Source of the DNA: a virus | Length of the DNA: 60,925 nt | Direction: 5' to 3' (one strand) | IMG/VR virus record: IMGVR_UViG_3300030419_007265 | Coordinates: 1-60,925 of that record | Shown: piece by piece, positions 35,172 to 56,618 of the stretch | How the letters are laid out: every line of letters starts with the position of its first letter | Position numbering within the stretch: the stretch's first letter is position 1 | Notes under the pieces: generated by a model | Databases searched by the model: none | What the model was told of the DNA's origin: nothing | Seen by the model: only the letters and a program-made list of their open reading frames with translations | Program-made: the position numbers and the translations under genes

Positions 35172-37220
35172 TTATTTCTCTAGAGAATTTTTTCTGCTAT
35201 GGTGCAAGATAGCAGCGGCATAATCATCTAACTCATGCTCGGCGCTTATGTCTACTATTTCTTTAAGAGGTTGCAAATCACTAAGCTTAGCAGAGTTTTC
35301 TATACATGATTTTGCGGTAGGTAGCCAATCTTTCGGGTCTTTAGCTATAACTACAGATTCACATACTTTTTCGAGAATAGATTTTTGATTCTTATTTAGC
35401 CTTTTCTTTTTAAATACTTTTTTAGCTTCACTCAATAAAGCGTTGTAAAGGTCATTTGTACTATCTACTGTTTGTTTGATAGCGTGCACTGAATATCTTG
35501 TTTCAGCTAACGTTTTAGAGCCTACAGGCCTTCCCGGTCTTCCGGGGCTCTTACCGCGGTTATTTTTTCGCTCTTCGTAGCGACGTCGTTGCTCAAGTAA
35601 TTTTGCTCCCTCTGGATGCCGGATCTCTTCAATTTCTTCCTCTTGATCAAAATCCATCGGCATGGGATTTCCCCCCACTAATGGATTATAAAATCCTTTT
35701 TGCCTATCGTCTACAAACTTTTCTTGAGCTTTTTCTAAAGTTTGAGAGTCGGGGAAAACCCCTGTGTCAATTACCTGCATCCCTTGCTCCGGAGGCAGAA
35801 TCCCTAATTCCATCATACGAGTAATGACCCGCTGCATTTGAGCCTGATCTTTTAAATCAATGGTTTCAAATTTAGCTGTAGGAATATCTCTGAAACCAAA
35901 GTTTTTACATAATTGCCTGATTTCATCTTGCAAAAATTCATTTAAAAAAGTATCGCGAGCTTCTTTTAAGCGCTGAAGAAACATCTGAGCTTTTACTTCT
36001 GTACTGGCAAACTTTTCTTGACTTAAAATAATATTCTGAAGGCCCTCTTTAATATCTTGGTTTACTACATCATACTTTGCGGGACCGATCACCTTATTGA
36101 TGTCAGGTATAACAAATTCTGCTTTTGTTGTATAATCACTTACTAAAATTCTGCCAACGCTTTGATTTTGAAACAATGCTTGCATGGCCCTGATATTACG
36201 GGGATTTATCCCTCCATTATCAGGAGTTGTTCCCATTGTAATAAGGAGGACTACATTCTCAATGGTGCGACAAATAGATTGGTCAATCTTCTTCATCTCC
36301 ATTTTGAAGTTGACATCATCTAAAACCGGAAAAGCAAAAGGAATTGCAAAAGGTTCGTAGTCCTGTTTTTTATAAAAAGAATACCGTAATTTTTCCGGAT
36401 CTAATCGGACTTTAATTCCGTCAACCGCCCAGCTATCACTTTTAATACGTTTTTTAATATTTTCTGGCAGAGCATCGTAAAGCTCTCGGTCTTCCTCAGT
36501 TTTTGGGTCTCGTAATCTTTCTACTTCGTATTCGCTTAATACTTTCGCGTATAAGCCGAACTTGTCAAAAGACGTAGCTCTTTGAGCAACAACATCATAA
36601 GGATTTAATAAAATATAACGAACAGGAATTTTATTGCTCATCATATTTATCCCAAGATTTCTTACTTTTGAAAAATCATCCGCCTTAATCTTGCTTTGTA
36701 AAGTATATAAAAATATATTACCGCTTCGATAGAATTCTCTAAAAAACTGATCCTTTAAGTTCCATATTTTAATTTTCTTAAACCAAGCATTTATAAAATC
36801 CCTAGACTTAGCGCTTCCTCCCTCTAAATAAAGTTTAGAGTTCGCAAAATCAGCCATCGTATCCACCGCATTCCTAACGACAGCAATATTCGCATAAGCT
36901 TTTTGGCACAACTCTATAGCGTCACGAACATTAACTCCATCAATAGAATACTGATAGGGCAACATCCCAGCTCTAATATTAGAGTATCTGTAAAGCATCG
37001 GAGCGACGGCAATATTATTACGCCTTAGCTCGGTGTTAGCTCCCCCTACTGGGGAACGAGAATAAGCTTGTGATTCATAATTATAAAAAGAATCTCCGAT
37101 TAATTGCGGCTCATACTCGCCTTTCGATGACGCCTGCATAATATTTTCTATGGGCTGATTCTTCTTTTGAATTTTTTCCCAATAATCAGACCGTTTCGTA
37201 TATTTTCTTTTTGCTGCCAT
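35172..37220 (-). CDS. Portal protein
   Basis: 682 residues. Portal hallmarks: an N-terminal region leading to YANIAVVRNAVDTMADFANS, wing/stem segment with PVRYILLNPYDVVAQ, and the helical crown (QDIKEGLQNIILSQEKFASTEV; DTFLNEFLQDEIRQLC; LKDQAQMQRVITRMMELG). Place between terminase and protease confirms the call. C-terminal ~150 residues are charged and extra relative to short portals, with a KKNNRGKSPGRPGRPVGSKT AT-hook-like tract. Late-type box GTGTAAACTATTTTAAC abuts the ATG. Forms the dodecameric DNA channel at one capsid vertex. Confidence 0.9.
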   Translation of the reverse strand: MAAKRKYTKRSDYWEKIQKKNQPIENIMQASSKGEYEPQLIGDSFYNYESQAYSRSPVGGANTELRRNNIAVAPMLYRYSNIRAGMLPYQYSIDGVNVRDAIELCQKAYANIAVVRNAVDTMADFANSKLYLEGGSAKSRDFINAWFKKIKIWNLKDQFFREFYRSGNIFLYTLQSKIKADDFSKVRNLGINMMSNKIPVRYILLNPYDVVAQRATSFDKFGLYAKVLSEYEVERLRDPKTEEDRELYDALPENIKKRIKSDSWAVDGIKVRLDPEKLRYSFYKKQDYEPFAIPFAFPVLDDVNFKMEMKKIDQSICRTIENVVLLITMGTTPDNGGINPRNIRAMQALFQNQSVGRILVSDYTTKAEFVIPDINKVIGPAKYDVVNQDIKEGLQNIILSQEKFASTEVKAQMFLQRLKEARDTFLNEFLQDEIRQLCKNFGFRDIPTAKFETIDLKDQAQMQRVITRMMELGILPPEQGMQVIDTGVFPDSQTLEKAQEKFVDDRQKGFYNPLVGGNPMPMDFDQEEEIEEIRHPEGAKLLEQRRRYEERKNNRGKSPGRPGRPVGSKTLAETRYSVHAIKQTVDSTNDLYNALLSEAKKVFKKKRLNKNQKSILEKVCESVVIAKDPKDWLPTAKSCIENSAKLSDLQPLKEIVDISAEHELDDYAAAILHHSRKNSLEK

Positions 37221-37269: not shown

Positions 37270-39135
37270 TTACATTATAAAAAGCGGTTCGAAAGTTTCT
37301 ACAACATCTTCTGCGGTTTGTGATTGTGAATCTAAATACACTTTTGCCATCCAATTTGCCAAAACTAATGCTGAATAAGAATCCTTTCGTGCCTTGTCCG
37401 GTCCTGTTTGCCGTCTAAGATTAGGCGGCAAATCAAATGTTTGCGTACCTTGAGCTGTAGTGGTTATTTGCACTAAAGCGCATTCATTTTTGGTTAATTC
37501 GATCATATCTGACTGATGCTCAATAAAATCAATCATTTTGGCCGCAGCCGTTTGCTTTGACTCCTCTGTGGTACGGAGAAACTTAAGGCTATCTATAGGA
37601 ATGCTTTGGCGCTTCTGTTTTGTGTAAAAATCATCAATTGCTCTACTGGCAAAATATATTCGGCGATGATCAAAATTCGCTTGAAGCAACTCGTTGGCCT
37701 GCCTGATCCAATTGCTAGTTGGTTTCCTTAATATAACATGATGATAGTTTTCTCTGTTATATTGTCTTTTGTAAGATTTTAAATCTTTTTGATATTCCTC
37801 AGGTTTATCGAGGCCTACCTCAATGGTTTGTAATTTAATTTTTTTCTGTTTAAAAATTTCGCTTTCATTACAGGCTTGCATAAATTGCACTCCTCCATTG
37901 TAGTCTCCGCATATAGCTACTATGTTAAAATTCTCTAAACAAAAAAGAAAATAATTAATATGATGTTTAAGGGAAGTTCCCGATAATGCATAACTATGAA
38001 CTAATGTTACAGTATGGTTTTCTGGGTTTAATTTAAGTATTTGAATAGCAAAATCATCAGAACTTTCAGTTTGCGACCATGAAGGGTCAAAAGCTAAAAT
38101 GTATTCGGCATCCGGATCTCCTTTCACCTCAACGCAAGGAAGGTCTCCATCGGGGATAGTGCATAAAGCCATCTTGCTAGTCTTAAAATAACCAGAACTA
38201 TCATCAGTAAAAATAGCCCCAAACTCTCTTTCAAATTGAGATTGACTCATTGTTGCTTTAGCTTGATTAATTAAATTTTCATCATAAAGCTGTTTAGGCG
38301 CACAATCATAACTATACTGCATGATACATCTAGAAGCGTTGTCTTTTTCAGCGTCTAAAGTAATTAAATGCTCGAATTGGGTATACAATTTATACAAGTA
38401 TTCAAATTTATAAGAAGCTGAAGAAAGGGCTATTAGTTTATTATTAGGCCATACATAACGCTCTTCTTCGCTCATTTTATTTTCTTCAATAAGCCGTGTC
38501 TCCAATTTAAATAAATCGTCCCGTTGAGTAGGGTTTTCTACTACCGACAAAAATGGCACTATAACTTCGTTATAAATTCTCTCCGGCATTAACAAGAACT
38601 CATCAATAATAATTCTATGAAAACGAAAACCACGCAGCTTCTCTCCATCACCTAAAGGCAAAGCCCTAATTCTACTTGCGCCAATCTCCATTAACCATTC
38701 ATCATTGCTTTTTGAAGTTTTTGTAATGCATTGTCGAAAAAATGCTGCATCAGGTTTATTAGCTATATCTTCAATTTTCTTAAAGATCATTTTTGCTTGT
38801 CTAAAAGATTTAGATAATATTCCAATCTCGACCCCTTGGTTAAGCACCGCATCTAGAGCAGCAAACACACCTGTTGTGAATGACTTGGACATACCACGAG
38901 ACCATACTCCTAAAAAATAATCAGTTTCAAACATCGACTTAATTGCCATATGCTGAAAAGGAAATAACTTCACTCCTAAAATTAGATCAGTAGTAAAAGT
39001 TATATTGTTCCTAAGAAACTCATACAAAGCTAATTTGGCTTCTTTCTCTTCAAGAAAACCGTCAAGCTTTAAAAGCTCTTCGTTATTTCTTAAATAAGGG
39101 GCGCGCCTATGTTGTCTGCCTTTATTCCAGCTCAT
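37270..39135 (-). CDS. Terminase large subunit
   Basis: 621 residues. ATPase: Walker A WSRGMSKSFTTG (residues ~78-89, with Ser in place of the usual Gly before Lys), Walker B RIIIDEF (174-180). RNase H-like nuclease: AFDPSW near residue 345, a second acid in ICGDYNGGVQFM near 410, and a third in KDSYSALVLANW near 590. This is the DNA packaging motor and cutter. Its start overlaps the stop of the zinc-finger/ERCC4 nuclease gene upstream by 14 nt, linking the two in translation. Confidence 0.93.
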   Translation of the reverse strand: MSWNKGRQHRRAPYLRNNEELLKLDGFLEEKEAKLALYEFLRNNITFTTDLILGVKLFPFQHMAIKSMFETDYFLGVWSRGMSKSFTTGVFAALDAVLNQGVEIGILSKSFRQAKMIFKKIEDIANKPDAAFFRQCITKTSKSNDEWLMEIGASRIRALPLGDGEKLRGFRFHRIIIDEFLLMPERIYNEVIVPFLSVVENPTQRDDLFKLETRLIEENKMSEEERYVWPNNKLIALSSASYKFEYLYKLYTQFEHLITLDAEKDNASRCIMQYSYDCAPKQLYDENLINQAKATMSQSQFEREFGAIFTDDSSGYFKTSKMALCTIPDGDLPCVEVKGDPDAEYILAFDPSWSQTESSDDFAIQILKLNPENHTVTLVHSYALSGTSLKHHINYFLFCLENFNIVAICGDYNGGVQFMQACNESEIFKQKKIKLQTIEVGLDKPEEYQKDLKSYKRQYNRENYHHVILRKPTSNWIRQANELLQANFDHRRIYFASRAIDDFYTKQKRQSIPIDSLKFLRTTEESKQTAAAKMIDFIEHQSDMIELTKNECALVQITTTAQGTQTFDLPPNLRRQTGPDKARKDSYSALVLANWMAKVYLDSQSQTAEDVVETFEPLFIM

Positions 39136-40069
39136 TTCGTTCTAAAAAATATTGAATGTCTGTTTGCCAAATTTCCTTACCATAGATTAATAATCTAGGT
39201 ATTATGGCAGATGCTTTTTCCCTAGTTTCTACAAATATAAATTGACAGCATCGAGCATACTCATGAGAAATTTCTTTGATTTGTTTTAATACAAAATCAA
39301 TATTAGTGCGCCGATTGAATATTTTATTTTCTTTAATTATTTTTTGTATACTCGACTCCACAACAACAAAAAGATAAGAATCCATTTCTTTAGCTCGTTC
39401 AATCTCTCGTTTAAATCTATCTACATTATGCTTATTTAAGGTTCCCTGCAGGTCACTTCCAGATTTACGGTCTACAAAAGTATAACTATAATGATCGCCT
39501 AAAGTAGTATAGTCTCCTATATCTAATTTCAGGATTTCTGTATCGCAATCAAACTTTAATGGTTTTTGCTCCCTTGTGTCTATGGCAATACATAAATCTT
39601 CAGGAATTTTCTTCGTAAAAAAATCTTTAGATAAATTTTTGTTATACAAAGGTTCGCAACCAATTTCTGCACACGCTGCATTATAGCTGCCAAAAAGTTT
39701 TCTATAAATTTCAATAGAAGGAATGAAAGAGTTCGCTGTCTCTAAATGGAAAGGGCCATATTTTCTTTTTTTCTTAGAGTGCCGCTTTTGAAGTAAAGAA
39801 GTGATATATTCTTTTACCTCTTCTTGCGGGTTTTCTTTGCACCATTTGATTAACTGTTGCTTTGTCGAAAAGTCTCTTTCAAAATATTCGTCATATCTTT
39901 TAAACGGGAGCGGATCGCCAGTTAACTTATTTGTGCGTGGAAAGTATTTTGTATAATAGCCTGCTAAATTTAAACCATGTTGTTTAATGTGCTTATGTAA
40001 AGAAGCCCTGCTTGTAAATTCTTTTTTACACTCCGCGCATGAAAAAACCTTGGAGTTTGTGACCTCCAC
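39122..40069 (-). CDS. C2H2 zinc finger fused to ERCC4-type nuclease
   Basis: 315 residues. N-terminus has a perfect C2H2 finger: Cys11-x2-Cys14-x12-His27-x3-His31 (FSCAECKKEF...LHKHIKQH). Residues ~160-260 form an ERCC4/XPF-type nuclease: IDTREQKPLKF, then LDIGDYTTLG, then FVDRKSGSDLQGTL, matching the D-x-R-E / GDY / (E/D)RK catalytic pattern. The middle is helical, with SFIPSIEIYRKLFGSYNAAC resembling a DNA-binding homing-endonuclease-associated repeat. It sits between the TerS candidate and TerL with overlapping ends. Possible roles: packaging-site recognition or cutting, or branch removal before packaging. Confidence 0.85.
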   Translation of the reverse strand: MEVTNSKVFSCAECKKEFTSRASLHKHIKQHGLNLAGYYTKYFPRTNKLTGDPLPFKRYDEYFERDFSTKQQLIKWCKENPQEEVKEYITSLLQKRHSKKKRKYGPFHLETANSFIPSIEIYRKLFGSYNAACAEIGCEPLYNKNLSKDFFTKKIPEDLCIAIDTREQKPLKFDCDTEILKLDIGDYTTLGDHYSYTFVDRKSGSDLQGTLNKHNVDRFKREIERAKEMDSYLFVVVESSIQKIIKENKIFNRRTNIDFVLKQIKEISHEYARCCQFIFVETREKASAIIPRLLIYGKEIWQTDIQYFLERNELE

Positions 40070-41139
40070 TAGATGGCGTCCTCCTTACTAATGCCTAATA
40101 CACGGGCTTTCCAGTCAGGCATTTTTTCTATTTCATCCGCCTCCTGTTGAACTGCTTGCTTTTGCATATCGGCCATTTTTATCATTAGTTTTCGCTCTTC
40201 TTCATCTTGAAATAGTTGAACTAAAGAAATAACAGAGGCGTTTCTTTGCTGTTGATTAGCTATGCGTTTCGCCCGCTCTCCATTGAGCTTTGCTAGCATT
40301 TTATCAATTCTATTTATACATTGATTATACTCCTCAGCTTTGGTTTTAAGCATTTCTGTTAACCTCATAGTTAAATCATTTTGCCCCTCCGTGTCATCAA
40401 ACATCAAATTTAGTTTTTGTTTTTGCTGTTCTATTTCTTTAAGATTAACATAGTCCATGCATACATTCACATATAAATTTAATTCATCTGAAGTCAGGTC
40501 AGGTTTATCCCATGTGCTTCGAATATATTCAGATTCAAAAAGATCCCTGCTTTGCCGGGTTAGGTAAGAACTAATAACTTGCACAAACCGTGGGGCGTTT
40601 AAATAAGTAATAAGCTTTTCAATACATTTTTTATCTTGTAAATTTATTTTTTTTAGGTCAAACTCTTTTGAAGTAACTTTGTTCAACCTTTTCATTGCAG
40701 TAGATAAAATGTGAGGAGGAGTATATTTTTCTCCAACCGCATCATCACGCAAATTCACAGTTGAAGGAAATTCTTTAGTAATATAATCGCAGAGAGAAAT
40801 AAACTTGTCGCTTTCCGTAAAGCCTTTACTTTCGGAATCTTTAGGCCACAGTAGTTGACCTATTTCCTTTTTGGTCATTTCGCCGCAATAATGCTGCTTT
40901 ACAAAAGACTTCTCTTCGTCTTGTAAAAAATATTTAGTAGCTCTTTTTTTAACCTTTGTTCGATAACTCAATCCTTTCTCTACCCAAAATTTTCTTAGCG
41001 CACGCCCTCTTACCGTACTGCCTTTTTCATTGGTGTCTTTAAATAATTGCTTTGTAGCTTCATTAAGATCACCGTCCAGCTCATCAAATAGCTTTAAGCT
41101 AGCCCCTTTTTCTTCTGCGGTTAGTACGTACTCTTTCAT
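40069..41139 (-). CDS. HTH and coiled-coil protein, small terminase candidate
   Basis: 356 residues. Two helix-turn-helix-like segments at the N-terminus (LTAEEKGASLKLFDELDGDL; LQDEEKSFVKQHYCGEMTKK...IGQLLWP) and a long coiled-coil C-terminal half (about 215-340). DNA-binding head plus oligomerising coil, two genes upstream of TerL, is the layout of a small terminase subunit. No specific family match seen. Ends overlap both neighbours (1 nt and 4 nt), so it is translated as part of the terminase operon. Confidence 0.5.
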   Translation of the reverse strand: MKEYVLTAEEKGASLKLFDELDGDLNEATKQLFKDTNEKGSTVRGRALRKFWVEKGLSYRTKVKKRATKYFLQDEEKSFVKQHYCGEMTKKEIGQLLWPKDSESKGFTESDKFISLCDYITKEFPSTVNLRDDAVGEKYTPPHILSTAMKRLNKVTSKEFDLKKINLQDKKCIEKLITYLNAPRFVQVISSYLTRQSRDLFESEYIRSTWDKPDLTSDELNLYVNVCMDYVNLKEIEQQKQKLNLMFDDTEGQNDLTMRLTEMLKTKAEEYNQCINRIDKMLAKLNGERAKRIANQQQRNASVISLVQLFQDEEERKLMIKMADMQKQAVQQEADEIEKMPDWKARVLGISKEDAI

Positions 41140-41858
41140 TCGAAAAATATATCAGTTTCATCACAAATCTTTTTAGCAATTTTTTTGTAGAAATTCTTTA
41201 AATTTTTTATCTGCTTATAGCCGGCTTTTCGCCCTTTTTCATTACTTTTGTAACCTAACACTCTAGCGACCGTTTCTTCATCGATGTGATCTATAAATAG
41301 CATTTTATATATAATATAATGCCTATCGTTTAAATATTGACGCATTGATAGATGCATCGAAACTACAGCCTCTCCAATATTATAATGATCTTCTGGGACG
41401 GTAAATCTATCAAATTCATTTGTTTCCAGAGAAACCGGTATTTTTATGTCATATGCTTGTTTACGTGTTTTTTCCCATTTAGCGTAGTCGGGACACTCGT
41501 TAGACTGAAGTCCTGTCTTAGTAAAAGAACACAAATTAGAAACTTGGCCGCTCCCTTGTTCTTTCGATTGATTGTGCTTGCAACTTATGCAGGGCCTTGC
41601 AAAATTAGAATAATTATTGCGTAGAATATTCTTAAGTTGATTGGAGATAATTTTATTGACCCACGGTTCAATAGGTCGAACTTGATCCCATTGCTCCCAT
41701 TTTTTATAAATATGAGCCCTAATAATCTGGGATACATCATCAAAGTCAAGCCATGCGATTGCATGAAGGTGCCACTTATAATAGCGCTTCCTTATTTCAT
41801 TATCGATAGTTTCTGACTTGTCCTCGTAGGTATGTTTGTTATTCTCCTCCACCACCAA
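41136..41858 (-). CDS. Phage sigma-70-family factor with zinc-binding insert
   Basis: 240 residues. Region 2: WLDFDDVSQIIRAHIYKKWE...RPIEPWVNKIISNQLKNILR (~36-80), the typical sigma region 2 with its D(F/L)xDVxQ and W-hxxIxxNxhxxxhR pattern. Region 4: HYIIYKMLFIDHIDEETVARVLG then a Lys-rich recognition helix (~178-235). Between them an insert with CISCKHNQ, NLCS and NECPD supplies four cysteines for a zinc site. Lacks regions 1 and 3, like ECF or T4 gp55-type late sigmas. Likely directs host RNA polymerase to the GTGTAAATATT-type boxes found before most virion genes. Confidence 0.75.
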   Translation of the reverse strand: MVVEENNKHTYEDKSETIDNEIRKRYYKWHLHAIAWLDFDDVSQIIRAHIYKKWEQWDQVRPIEPWVNKIISNQLKNILRNNYSNFARPCISCKHNQSKEQGSGQVSNLCSFTKTGLQSNECPDYAKWEKTRKQAYDIKIPVSLETNEFDRFTVPEDHYNIGEAVVSMHLSMRQYLNDRHYIIYKMLFIDHIDEETVARVLGYKSNEKGRKAGYKQIKNLKNFYKKIAKKICDETDIFFE

Positions 41859-42256: not shown

Positions 42257-42979
42257 TTACTTTAAAGGGTTATTTTCTAGTTTATTCACAATAAATTTTA
42301 AAATTTCACTCCGCATGATATCTTCGTGTGTGAACTTAAAGGTATACACTCCTTTTTCCCTAGATTCCTCATCATTAAACAAATTTACTATAGGAGCAAA
42401 GCCGGTTTTACCATTTATGTCTGATTGCATGGGATCTCCACAAATAAAATATTTAGAATTATTTCCTATTCGTGTGATCAGCGTGACAAGTTCTTTATGT
42501 GTAAAATTTTGAGATTCATCAGCAATAATTAACTTATTATCCCAACTTGCTCCCCTTAGATAATTAATCGGAGCACATTGTATGATTTTTTCTTCCATTA
42601 GCATTTTTATTTGATCTGCAGATAAAAGCTCTGTCAATTTATCTTGCAAGGGCATCATAAAGGGATGAAACTTCTCGTCTAGATCTCCCGGAAGGCTCCC
42701 TAAGTTTCTATCCCCACTTTCCGCTATAGTTCGGACATAGAATAAATCCTGATTCATGTTCATGTTAAATAGCTGTAAGGCAGCATAAATAGAAATAAAT
42801 GTTTTAGAGGATCCTGCTGGACCCGAAACAAAAACAATTTTAGTGTTTTTGTCAAAAGCTATTTTTAAAAACTCTTTTTGTTTTTCAGTTAATTCAAAGT
42901 TTTTTAAATAAAGTTTATACTTATTCTCAAAAGATATTATTTTCTCCGACGCCGAGGACTTTTTCCGTCTACTCATCAT
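42257..42979 (-). CDS. phoH: PhoH-family ATPase
   Basis: 240 residues. Walker A GPAGSSKT (53-60) and Walker B LIIADESQN (~150), with the PhoH-specific stretch FYVRTIAESGDRNLGSLPGD and LRGASWDNKLIIADE. PhoH is widespread in marine phages; its phage function is not settled (RNA-linked or stress-related NTPase). First gene of the minus-strand head/terminase superoperon, with a late-type box GTGTAATATTTAA right before the ATG, divergent from the gene at 43073. Confidence 0.92.
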   Translation of the reverse strand: MMSRRKKSSASEKIISFENKYKLYLKNFELTEKQKEFLKIAFDKNTKIVFVSGPAGSSKTFISIYAALQLFNMNMNQDLFYVRTIAESGDRNLGSLPGDLDEKFHPFMMPLQDKLTELLSADQIKMLMEEKIIQCAPINYLRGASWDNKLIIADESQNFTHKELVTLITRIGNNSKYFICGDPMQSDINGKTGFAPIVNLFNDEESREKGVYTFKFTHEDIMRSEILKFIVNKLENNPLK

Positions 42980-47397: not shown

Positions 47398-49098
47398 CTA
47401 TTTCCAAACCAGAATATCTTCTAATATTAAATAATCTAAATTAGATCGCAAAAATGTTTTAATGGCATCTTCAGCGCTATCTACCAACGGTTCCCCTTTT
47501 AAATTAAAGCTTGTGTTCAAAAAGACAGGGGTACCAGACAATTGCTCAAAATGACCTAAAGCATTATAAATTATTTTATTTTGTTCAGCATTAACAGATT
47601 GAGGTCTACATGTCCCATCAATATGAGTAACCGCAGGTATTCTCTTTTTCCATTCGTCCCTAACAGGCGCGGCTATTAGCATATATGGAGAAGGGTGCTT
47701 TAAATCCACTATTGTATTAAAATTATCTTCCTTTATAACAGGTGCTAATGGACGCCACAATTCTCTGTCTTTAATTTTGTTTACTTTATCTAAATTCGAT
47801 GCAATGGTAGGATTAGCTAAAATACTCCGGTGGCAAAGTGCCCGCGGCCCTATTTCGGCTTTACCTGCACAATAGCCTACAATTTTATTATTATGAATTA
47901 AAGTTGCTAACGTGCTCGCTACATCTACTTGTTTGTAACGAAGCTGAGAATATTGTTTGATAACCTCAACAGCACTCTTGCTCACAAAACTCGACCCCCA
48001 ATAAGCTGAGGGAAAATTTATTGCAGGGATATGCTTTTTCCATCCAGACTGCTCACTTGAACATAAAATAGCTGCACCTAAAGCCGTACCGCTATCATGA
48101 GCCGCAGGAGGTATAAATAAGTTATTTACAAAAGGCTCTTTGATTAATTGTCCATTTGCTGAACAATTTAAAGCTGTACCTCCTGACAAAGCAAAATCGC
48201 CACATCCGGTTTTTGAATAAAGAAGTGTAGCTGCTTCTAGCAATACCTCTTCTAAATACTGCTGTGCGGTTTTGGCTAAGTTAACGCTTTCCGTACATAG
48301 AATGTTTTCATGAATTTTTTGCTTGACTCCTTGCAGTTCTAACTTTGTAAGAAATGTTTCGACTTTGTTTTGATCAATTTGCCATAATCCACCTCGATTA
48401 ACAAAAATTATATCTCTAGGTAATAGGCTTTCATCGCATTGGCCGTAACACGCCAGACCCATTGTTTTCCCTTCTTGCTCATGAGGCTTAAAACCTAAAA
48501 ACTTAGTAATGTCTTCATAGAAACGACCTATCGAGCCTAAGTAAGTAAAGTACGCTTCTTCTCGCATCTTTCCATTTGAAAAATATCCTGCGCGTCCAGC
48601 GGTTGCCCCTCCATTCCCATCCATGGTAATATAATTACATTCTTTAAAAGGCGAACAACTTATGGAGCTAACGGCGTGACATTCGTGGTGATCATACCAA
48701 TGTAAATTTTGTATGGGAAATCCATATCTTATTGCCTCTTTAATAAGTTGAGCTTCGAGGTCGATATCCGCTAATTCGTAAAGTGCTGCGCCGAACTCGT
48801 CCGACTCCCATTCTAACTTATCCCACTCAAGATCTATGTTCTGCGCATAATCAGCGCCATGACATTTTTCCCATGTGTTTCGCGCTGTATCCCATCCAAT
48901 CGCTATCCTTCCAACGTCTTCTTTTTTAATTCCCGCAGCTTCTAAACAATAGTCAATTGAATGACGCGGAAAAGTTTTAAACGATTGCTTTATTCGGCTA
49001 AACCTCTCTTCTTCTGCAAAAGCAATGATTTCGTTATTTTTAAATAAGCATGCGGCTTGATTATAAGCCCCTAAAGTAGTTATCCCTAATATGTACAT
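47398..49098 (-). CDS. NodU/CmcH/TobZ-family carbamoyltransferase
   Basis: 566 residues, full family length. N-terminal YrdC-related/kinase-like part: MYILGITTLGAYNQAACLF, DHHECHAVSSI (metal-binding His set), DGNGGATAGRAG. C-terminal part: ALSGGTALNCSANGQL, PPAAHDSGTALGAA, the AEIGPRALCHRSILANP motif, ELWRPLAPVIKED and a SGTPVFLNTSFNLKGEP block. Family members transfer a carbamoyl group from carbamoyl phosphate to hydroxyl groups on sugars or antibiotics. In some phages homologues modify hydroxymethyl pyrimidines in DNA. The substrate here is open; nearby sugar-transfer genes favour a glycan. Confidence 0.93.
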   Translation of the reverse strand: MYILGITTLGAYNQAACLFKNNEIIAFAEEERFSRIKQSFKTFPRHSIDYCLEAAGIKKEDVGRIAIGWDTARNTWEKCHGADYAQNIDLEWDKLEWESDEFGAALYELADIDLEAQLIKEAIRYGFPIQNLHWYDHHECHAVSSISCSPFKECNYITMDGNGGATAGRAGYFSNGKMREEAYFTYLGSIGRFYEDITKFLGFKPHEQEGKTMGLACYGQCDESLLPRDIIFVNRGGLWQIDQNKVETFLTKLELQGVKQKIHENILCTESVNLAKTAQQYLEEVLLEAATLLYSKTGCGDFALSGGTALNCSANGQLIKEPFVNNLFIPPAAHDSGTALGAAILCSSEQSGWKKHIPAINFPSAYWGSSFVSKSAVEVIKQYSQLRYKQVDVASTLATLIHNNKIVGYCAGKAEIGPRALCHRSILANPTIASNLDKVNKIKDRELWRPLAPVIKEDNFNTIVDLKHPSPYMLIAAPVRDEWKKRIPAVTHIDGTCRPQSVNAEQNKIIYNALGHFEQLSGTPVFLNTSFNLKGEPLVDSAEDAIKTFLRSNLDYLILEDILVWK

Positions 49099-50868: not shown

Positions 50869-51234
50869 ATGTCTTTAAGTGAATGTCGTTTTTGTGATCT
50901 AAGTCTCCACTCTATTCTGGAAACAAATGAACACGCAGCTTCTTTTTTAGACGCTTATCCTGTAACTAAATATCACAGTTTATTTATTCCTCGTCGACAC
51001 GTTTTGACTTATTTTGATTTAAATGATAAAGAACGTGAAAGTATTCATGAGCTTCTAATCATTCAGCGTGAAAATATTCTAAAGCAAGACCCAACTGTTA
51101 AAGGTTTTAATATTGGATGGAACTGTGGTAAGGAAGCTGGGCAAACAGTTTTTCATGCTCATTGTCATTTAATTCCACGGAGAGATGGTGATGATTATAA
51201 TGATAAAAGACGAAAAAATCAGCCATGGGTATAG
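50869..51234 (+). CDS. HIT-family nucleotide hydrolase/transferase
   Basis: 121 residues. HIT motif FHAHCHLIPRR with His96-x-His98-x-His100; the N-terminus has CRFC (C6/C9) and CDLSLHS, a variant of the zinc-binding C-x2-C of HIT proteins, and FLDAYPVTKYHSLFIPRRHV. HIT proteins cleave or transfer nucleotides on phosphate esters such as Ap4A. Follows the terminator, so starts a new unit. Could tune alarmone-type dinucleotides in the infected cell. Confidence 0.9.
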   Translation: MSLSECRFCDLSLHSILETNEHAASFLDAYPVTKYHSLFIPRRHVLTYFDLNDKERESIHELLIIQRENILKQDPTVKGFNIGWNCGKEAGQTVFHAHCHLIPRRDGDDYNDKRRKNQPWV

Positions 51235-52802: not shown

Positions 52803-53024
52803 ATGTCAGTTCATCTTAAAACAATGTTAGAATCCGCTAAGCGCGCGGCTTCCGCAGCTCAGGATGCAGCCAATGATTGCCAGAAGGCCGTAGAAGCAAG
52901 TCGCCGTGAAGCTGAAGAAATTTCCTCTTTAGCTAATGAAGCCTCCACCCAAGTAGTTCAAGCTCAAGAACGAGTAAAAACAATTGAAGCAAAAATAACG
53001 GCTACTTCAAACTCAGACGGTTGA
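52803..53024 (+). CDS. Small coiled-coil protein
   Basis: 73 residues, entirely helical heptads (LESAKRAASAAQDAANDCQK...AQERVKTIEAKI). No TM or signal. Its 3' end overlaps the oppositely oriented fucosyltransferase gene by 12 nt. Confidence 0.6.
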   Translation: MSVHLKTMLESAKRAASAAQDAANDCQKAVEASRREAEEISSLANEASTQVVQAQERVKTIEAKITATSNSDG

Positions 53025-54059
53025 AAGAACAGTATCCTTAAAGAATTTAAGGATAGCGTCAGGCTTAACCGATTCGGGAATAGTATTGTCAACAAAAAGA
53101 GGTTCATTTATATAGGATTGGTATCTCTCTTCATTCTGGTCAATTTGTTTTATATCTTCGATCATTTCGTCGATCGATTCATAATCAATTAGATTGATAA
53201 ATGCTTTTGTGTTGAAGTCGTTTGACACACTGGAGTGCCCCCAGTAAATAGGTACTGCTCCCGCGATTTTAGCATGAAAAAGTTTTTCGGTATGGTAGCC
53301 TTCCCGAATTTTATTTTCAAAACAAAAAATAAACCTATAGTCTTTAGAGATTTCTAATTTTCTTTTTTCCCACGGATAGAACCCGTTACCAAAATAATCT
53401 CCATATCCATCTACAGTTTTATAAGCGTTTAATTTTTCATACGCTTCTATACGATTACCTGTTGAATTATTAAAAAAACTTACACAAAATTTAGTTTTAG
53501 TAGTGTTTTTGTATTGATTATCATTTATATCAGATTCGCCTATCAAAAGAGCTGGCTCACCATAAGAAACATCATACCCTTGATATTGAGCATTATATGT
53601 AGCCTTGTTAAACCAATCAATCTGATACGCCCAATAGGGAAGCCTTTTGTGACGGGTATCGCTGGTTACATCATGAGTTAAAGCAAAGTCGCACTTTGAG
53701 TAATAATATTTTACTCTATCGCTATCTTCACTATCTCCAGTTAAATCACTTAGAGGATCACTAACATATGTTGTTTGGGACCCTGCAGTTGTACGAATGG
53801 AAACAGAAGGAGGATAAGAAGTCTCTTGATCTAACTTAGCAGGGATACCTTCCATTGTATAAAAAACTCTTTTTGTGATTTTGTCTTTATACTTAAGTCT
53901 TTCTTGATTTTGATAAGGGTCGCATGATAAAAATAATATATCCGGATTTTCTTCGTCCAGTTCTACATCGTAAGCAGTTTTCAGTAGATGATAAAAGTAA
54001 TTGTTATCATAATAAAACTGAGGCCAAAAATCTGCAAACCATAATTTTAATTTTGACAT
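53013..54059 (-). CDS. GT10-family fucosyltransferase
   Basis: 348 residues. Family GT10 (alpha-1,3/1,4-fucosyltransferase) signature: KFCVSFFNNSTGNRIEAYEK, then YRFIFCFENKIREGYHTEK and HAKIAGAVPIYWG, the donor (GDP-fucose) binding motif. N-terminal acceptor part with DILFLSCDPY. Soluble, no TM. With the carbamoyltransferase and 49167-49985 it makes a scattered sugar-modification set that may alter host LPS or virion glycans. Confidence 0.9.
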   Translation of the reverse strand: MSKLKLWFADFWPQFYYDNNYFYHLLKTAYDVELDEENPDILFLSCDPYQNQERLKYKDKITKRVFYTMEGIPAKLDQETSYPPSVSIRTTAGSQTTYVSDPLSDLTGDSEDSDRVKYYYSKCDFALTHDVTSDTRHKRLPYWAYQIDWFNKATYNAQYQGYDVSYGEPALLIGESDINDNQYKNTTKTKFCVSFFNNSTGNRIEAYEKLNAYKTVDGYGDYFGNGFYPWEKRKLEISKDYRFIFCFENKIREGYHTEKLFHAKIAGAVPIYWGHSSVSNDFNTKAFINLIDYESIDEMIEDIKQIDQNEERYQSYINEPLFVDNTIPESVKPDAILKFFKDTVLSTV

Positions 54060-55853: not shown

Positions 55854-56618
55854 TTATTCTTTCCTTGGTTTCCCATTTAAAATCCAATGAGAAGGCAATG
55901 ATCCTTCAAAATGAAGGGAAATATTTTTATTACTCTTATTTAATACCCAAATTGGGGTTCCAGCTGAAATAACATGATTTGGAATCATCCACTCTTCAAA
56001 CTCATCATCATAAGAATTAATTAACCATCCATCATGATAATCATAATCATAAACAACAATATCAGAATTAGATCCAAATAATGATCCTATTGTATTTGTT
56101 TTGTAAGAAAAAGGAACTGTAATCATCGAAAATCCAACGGGTACCACTTGCGAATAATAATAAATGGATTTTTCATTTGATAGCCGCGGTGTTGTAATTT
56201 TATCGCTTTTTTCAAGAATATATCCTTTTACATATCTTGGAAAATTTTCCTTTACATCTCCCCATGTGTAATTCTTTGTTGCTTTTATAATAAGATAATC
56301 TTCGTTTCCTGCATTGTCAGGAAATCCTGTGTCCCAATTTGAATAAGAAAATGACTCTTCAGTTACCCAGCGCCAATTCCCTTCTTCTTTTTCATCTGTA
56401 GCTCCAAGCCAATAATAAGTAGATTCAATATTAGGCATTAATTCATTTATTTGTTTTTGTTCTACTTCATTAGTTATTGTCGCCAAGTGACCTCCTTGTG
56501 CTTCAGCGTGTGCTTTTGCTTCGTGCCAAGTAAAAGCTCCCTCAACGATTTCGTAGGATGTTGCGTTGAGTGAAAACAGACTCATAAAAAGAGCCCCAAA
56601 AATAAATAACCTGTTCAT
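55854..56618 (-). CDS. Secreted C-type lectin-domain protein
   Basis: 254 residues. Signal peptide MNRLFIFGALFMSLFSLNA. Residues ~22-136 are a C-type lectin fold: WHEAKAHAEAQGGHLATIT, YYWLGATDEKEEGNWRWVTE, SYSNWDTGFPDNAGNEDYLI, ending WGDVKENFPRYVKGYI. The remaining ~110 residues (VVPVGFSMITVPFSYKTNTI, AGTPIWVLNKSNKNISLHFE) resemble a beta-rich domain of exported bacterial proteins. Phage-carried secreted lectins are unusual. Has a host-type promoter of its own. Possibly a surface-acting moron. Confidence 0.8.
   Translation of the reverse strand: MNRLFIFGALFMSLFSLNATSYEIVEGAFTWHEAKAHAEAQGGHLATITNEVEQKQINELMPNIESTYYWLGATDEKEEGNWRWVTEESFSYSNWDTGFPDNAGNEDYLIIKATKNYTWGDVKENFPRYVKGYILEKSDKITTPRLSNEKSIYYYSQVVPVGFSMITVPFSYKTNTIGSLFGSNSDIVVYDYDYHDGWLINSYDDEFEEWMIPNHVISAGTPIWVLNKSNKNISLHFEGSLPSHWILNGKPRKE

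Follow-up and report, generated by a model that had tools for sequence, protein, structure and literature searches.

Accessory nucleases of the packaging motor are known in very few forms, namely the HNH protein gp74 of HK97 and endonuclease VII (gp49) of T4, the gene for which lies outside any TerS-TerL operon. HK97 gp74 and other HNH packaging endonucleases were reportedly treated by Kala et al. (2014), as cited in PMC9410871, PMC11331095 and PMC10448857. gp74 stimulates cos cleavage by the large terminase subunit, TerL, and may itself cut a single strand (PMC11331095, PMC9410871). In T4, gp49 attaches to the portal and releases stalled Y-DNA (PMC9958956). We analyzed a 60.9-kb viral contig (IMG/VR record IMGVR_UViG_3300030419_007265, 60,925 nucleotides, called the window below) in which a gene fusing a C2H2 zinc finger to a predicted ERCC4/XPF nuclease lies directly upstream of the TerL gene. 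Like the genes for HNH packaging endonucleases, it is an accessory gene of the terminase module that encodes a predicted nuclease besides that of TerL itself, and it is conserved in related phages. Unlike them, it has the ERCC4/XPF fold in place of HNH, its ends overlap a small terminase (TerS) candidate and TerL, and it carries a C2H2 finger at the N-terminus. We consider the fusion protein to be an accessory packaging nuclease of some kind, with a probability of roughly two in three, in a large and uncultured lineage of tailed phages.

The fusion gene occupies positions 39122-40069 of the window, on the minus strand like all other window features given here, and encodes 315 amino acids from a GTG start. 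This GTG shares 1 nucleotide with the stop codon of the upstream gene (TAGTG), and a ribosome-binding site, AAGGAGG, can be read directly inside that gene (40080-40086). At the other end, the final 14 nucleotides of the fusion gene (39122-39135) are also the start of TerL (ATGAGCTGGAATAA), and overlapping gene ends are found in relatives of the locus as well. An earlier note on this DNA had described the gene as overlapping at its ends with the TerS candidate on one side and TerL on the other; the overlaps of 1 and 14 nucleotides bear this out, but the TerS identity stays that of a candidate. The AlphaFold2 model of the fusion protein (mean predicted local distance difference test score of 86.5) begins with a finger-like part, continues through a helical middle and closes with a nuclease domain.

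The ERCC4/XPF nuclease domain, at residues 158-300 (39170-39598), is recognized by Pfam, PHROGs and structure comparison. Pfam ERCC4 scores 29 bits, over its curated cut-off of 24, and the fusion protein matches phrog_3490, an "ERCC4-type nuclease," with an E value of 4.8e-16. The modeled domain superimposes on A. pernix XPF (2bgw) with a Z score of 12.9 and a root-mean-square deviation of 2.4 over 123 residues, and on 1j24 with a Z score of 12.1; Hef, Mus81 and human XPF are further structural matches. The structure search agrees with the XPF/ERCC4 nuclease described in the earlier note. The catalytic motifs are DTRE (residues 164-167, within D164TREQ; 39569-39580), GDY (185-187; 39509-39517) and DRKSGSD (200-206, corresponding to (D/E)RKx3D; 39452-39472). 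In an alignment to Hef, they correspond to the GDXnERKX3D signature of XPF/MUS81, in the form GDY...DRKx3D. DTRE, (G/A)DY and (D/E)RKx3D are kept in all 178 distinct complete fusion proteins, with the canonical ERK in one clade (L137/L148). Two loci read DSRE, matching Hef. The protein therefore shares with XPF/MUS81/Hef (PF02732) the nuclease fold and the motif GDXn(E/D)RKX3D. It differs in having neither the helicase part nor the helix-hairpin-helix module, and in starting instead with a C2H2 finger followed by a helical region. No helix-hairpin-helix match came from Pfam scans of 30, 18 and 11 fusion-protein members, and in the AlphaFold2 model the nuclease domain ends about 15 residues short of the C-terminus. 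Pfam likewise found no HNH or endonuclease VII domain in the fusion protein, and PF01844 (HNH) is absent from 13 related records. On its modeled fold and its motifs, we assign the fusion protein to the ERCC4 nuclease superfamily, yet it is not a full XPF/MUS81 protein because the helix-hairpin-helix part is missing.

The C2H2 finger covers residues 11-31 (39977-40039) with the arrangement C11-x2-C14-x12-H27-x3-H31. It fits the classical pattern C-x2-4-C-x12-H-x3-5-H, and its four zinc ligands are invariant in the 178 distinct complete proteins; one further subclade has H-x4-H spacing and also retains every ligand. Pfam zf-C2H2 scores 20.9 bits in the window protein, under the curated cut-off of 25.2, and its matches are weak in nearly all members scanned. 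A chance occurrence of the finger is ruled out because the ligands are invariant. The 2-12-3 finger and the nuclease with DTREQ, GDY and DRKSG, as the earlier note had described them, are confirmed in the sequence. That note had also called the finger eukaryote-like; the motif fits this wording, but it says nothing on origin. A helical middle follows at residues 33-150 (39620-39973), with conserved YYxKxxPR, LPFK and YF motifs. Within it, residues 106-139 (39653-39754) weakly resemble PF18780, a homing-endonuclease-associated repeat, at 15.5 bits against a cut-off of 26 in the window protein and with a best E value of 5.5e-4 among the members. The N-terminal module alone had no convincing match in cultured phages.

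A scan with the window fusion protein retrieved 79 viral relatives, with a common gene order wherever the contig extends: PhoH, a zinc ribbon, a sigma-like gene, the TerS candidate, the fusion, TerL and a gene for 682 amino acids. Because these first loci had been selected by the fusion itself, we counted presence and absence in three scans made with TerL only, from different starting clades, which gave 168 distinct loci. These are contigs, with no complete genome among them. A tally of 217 loci contains some retrieved with the fusion itself and was excluded from these counts. In 163 of 163 assessable loci the fusion precedes TerL, directly in 158 and behind an inserted gene in 5; the other 5 of the 168 have too little upstream DNA to judge. 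Neither loss of the fusion (0/163) nor loss of the catalytic motifs (0/178), which the earlier note had held open as outcomes, occurs among the relatives, and the neighborhood survey it had suggested came out in favor of the linkage. Conversely, scanning with an alignment of diverse fusion proteins retrieved 76 loci for examination, with TerL downstream in all 75 that extend far enough. Bacterial genome assemblies yielded 58 matches. Five are full fusions, all of them flanked by a TerS candidate and TerL, on contigs assigned to metagenome-assembled genomes, and the other 53 are ERCC4 domains with no finger and no TerL nearby.

This linkage spans considerable divergence. Identity to the window sequences falls to about 55% for TerL and about 35% for the fusion, and clustering the 178 distinct complete fusion proteins at 90, 70 and 50% identity leaves 93, 25 and 8 clusters. 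The ratio of nonsynonymous to synonymous substitution rates is 0.057 for the fusion gene, compared with 0.05 for TerL and 0.054 for PhoH. Patristic distances of the fusion correlate with those of TerL (0.91), the TerS candidate (0.95) and three further neighbors (0.94-0.96); these values lie inside the spread for all neighboring gene pairs. Supported splits that conflict with the fusion tree exist, but they likewise occur among the neighbor genes, as expected from recombination between phages. We conclude that the fusion gene has the behavior of a stable packaging-module component, under purifying selection and co-inherited with the terminase.

The region upstream of terminase is a hot spot for homing-type genes, and the HK97 HNH protein has been debated accordingly (PMC10448857). 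The fusion could in principle be a stand-alone homing endonuclease that represents a new class (ERCC4) and is still active or has recently decayed. It resembles such enzymes (HNH, T5orf172/GIY-YIG, LAGLIDADG) in joining DNA-binding and nuclease parts beside terminase, the weak PF18780-like stretch would fit as well, and homing elements do invade the module, as a LAGLIDADG gene (L162, L192, L193) and as TerL inteins (L144, L145, L236). Unlike the fusion, however, the LAGLIDADG gene and the inteins are patchy in the lineage. The fusion has no empty site among the 163 assessable loci and is retained where a gene has been inserted beside it (L162, L193, L354, L356, L362). No second copy was found on any contig examined, including one of 194.5 kb, and its tree shows no incongruence beyond that of its neighbors, whose distances it tracks. 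The Slashviruses provide a contrast: an HNH gene sits between TerL and the gene upstream of it in Slash and in none of Stills, Stahl and Staley (1/4). ERCC4 is, to our knowledge, not a recognized homing class. Because the fusion is single-copy, tracks its neighbors and, unlike the HNH gene of Slash, is not patchy, we rejected homing as the main explanation and regard it as very improbable.

Still slightly less credible is a nuclease directed against competitors, such as satellites or phages that borrow packaging machinery, and domesticated like Odn of ICP1. Domesticated satellite-directed nucleases have precedent (PMC10448857), but weapons of this kind are patchy and fast-evolving, whereas the fusion is universal and under strong purifying selection.

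The inserted genes can be described further. The LAGLIDADG-type gene encodes 217 amino acids (L162 814-1467, L193 1113-1766, L192 87-740) and separates the fusion from TerL in L162 and L193; in L192 it immediately precedes TerL. The inteins of L144 and L145 (2555-5632) stand directly before the Walker A-like SRGMSKS motif of TerL, and that of L236 (6902-9973) at about residue 114. Methyltransferase-like cargo genes, recognized by eye, occur around the module in L232 (6912-7550) and L151 (5153-5830). In the 194.5-kb relative (G013, locus L376), cargo genes lie at 175322-176380 and 177302-177931, and a gene that by eye resembles a subtilisin-like protease stands between the fusion and TerL. KF669661.1 (Slash) with KP696448.1, KP696447.1 and KF669663.1 forms an occupied/empty-site set at the HNH slot upstream of TerL.

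XPF enzymes act in repair, and the fusion protein might be a replication or recombination nuclease that is co-transcribed with terminase and makes no contact with the motor. The closest named relatives of its nuclease domain, at about 25-28% identity and E values down to 3e-3, are in haloarchaeal tailed viruses (HF1/HF2, HJTV-1) and magroviruses, whose ERCC4 nucleases are assigned to replication or lie away from terminase (PMC10160649). The HF2 protein differs from the fusion in being about 154 amino acids long and finger-less, and its gene sits among small genes near a Rad3-like helicase, away from terminase. That a homolog lacking the finger resides elsewhere in its genome speaks against this explanation for the fusion. 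So does the expectation that a replication gene hops between modules, when the fusion is beside TerL in every locus across the 8 clusters at 50% identity. We consider a replication role improbable.

The universality of the fusion gene, its position and its coupling to TerL lead us to a packaging role. TerL itself (37270-39135) conserves across the lineage the acidic residues D350, D411 and D585 of its putative C-terminal nuclease, and the fusion nuclease would therefore be an added cutter. The gene upstream (40069-41139; 356 amino acids) is a TerS candidate from its position and from a helical, DNA-binding-like model with a helix-turn-helix-like N-terminus and a long helical hairpin. Family searches gave no TerS match, and a Foldseek search with the helical model returned nothing significant (best E value of 0.07). 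No profile match linked this candidate to the genes that precede TerL in Slash, MaeS and SPbeta-like phages, and homology to them was set aside.

One form of packaging role is a site-specific cut, in which the finger and helical region would read pac or cos, and the ERCC4 domain would make one of the cuts by which packaging begins or finishes and TerL the other, as has been proposed for gp74 in HK97. The slot beside TerL and the translational overlap resemble those of HNH packaging proteins, the N-terminus is of DNA-binding type and weakly similar to the homing-associated repeat, and the retained TerL nuclease makes the extra one additional. The stimulation of cos cleavage by HK97 gp74 supplies a precedent (PMC11331095, PMC9410871). 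On the other side, one finger alone recognizes only about 3 bp, and the finger helix positions differ between clades. A synonymous-site scan gave no conserved cis DNA element near terminase: dips in synonymous diversity across the operon are weak (TerL codons 166-180, PhoH 24-41, TerS candidate 213-226), and the TerL dip, the only one aligned, had no clear element. We also know of no sequence-specific enzyme with the ERCC4 fold. A site-specific nuclease is thus possible but unlikely. The stronger proposal, that a C2H2-guided XPF/MUS81-type nuclease is an obligatory third terminase subunit making a site-specific cut at packaging ends, seems to us a little more doubtful again; if true, an ERCC4 nuclease would be guided by sequence, and viral genomes would be ended in a new manner. 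TerL codons 166-180 (window positions ~38594-38640) are among the strongest synonymous dips of the operon. In the 194.5-kb relative, the two ends have no 20-mer in common.

We lean slightly toward branch trimming over a site-specific end cut, and tentatively propose an accessory packaging nuclease with branched DNA as its main substrate. The C2H2 finger and helical region would hold DNA or a motor protein, and the XPF-type domain would cut one strand at branches, flaps or junctions of the replicated concatemer. Removal of branches would let TerL run without stalling, the task of portal-bound gp49 in T4. We favor this proposal because known members of the XPF/Hef/Mus81 fold are structure-specific enzymes and because no RuvC, RusA or endonuclease VII family match turned up in searches of the 194.5-kb relative. 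The likeness to gp49 lies in the proposed clearing of branches that stall the motor (PMC9958956); the fold of gp49 is different, being that of endonuclease VII (His-Me). We infer that the fusion protein cuts DNA, that its substrate is branched and that it contacts the motor.

Several points weigh against branch trimming. The resolvase searches were limited to a few families, and the one for endonuclease VII matched in none of six records, so the absence of these enzymes is weakly supported. Two relatives (L290, L291), presumably freshwater ones going by sample context, encode an endonuclease VII-like protein roughly 11 kb away from the terminase genes (G005, 50896-51057; G011, 1074-1235). Debranching there may already be covered, and this separate gene also counts in favor of a site-specific role for the fusion. 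In addition, the domain is without the helix-hairpin-helix module, by which XPF and Mus81 grip branched DNA, and gene position alone can reflect late expression instead of contact with TerL.

The earlier note had also considered that a branch-specific or site-specific nuclease working with the packaging motor would be novel. An ERCC4 fold with a C2H2 finger in this place is new, and we found no paper that reports a terminase module with an ERCC4 or C2H2-ERCC4 protein; nucleases next to terminase are already known from the HK97-type HNH proteins. What is new is thus probably the fold and architecture of an accessory packaging nuclease. The locus places in the terminase module, fixed across a widespread phage lineage, a fold used by eukaryotes and archaea for branched DNA, joined to a finger that is rare in phages. 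Two questions can clearly be tested on it: whether a motor requires a cutter of its own, and how packaging nucleases can be told apart from homing endonucleases, which is unsettled for HNH genes (PMC10448857).

The remaining neighbors are conserved as well. Upstream of the TerS candidate, in relatives too, is a gene with weak similarity to sigma-70 region 2 (41136-41858), and an ECF sigma gene lies near terminase in Slash too. A PhoH-like ATPase is encoded at 42257-42979, and the gene for 682 amino acids after TerL (35172-37220) is a portal candidate by position only. The best cultured match of TerL is in Microcystis phage MaeS, at 27.6%, and the lineage has no close cultured member. The window carries a long-tail gene set, including a tape measure and tail fiber J. 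Its Nol-like carbamoyltransferase (47398-49098), GT10 fucosyltransferase (53013-54059) and C-type lectin domain (55854-56618) genes likely have roles in sugar modification and host binding.
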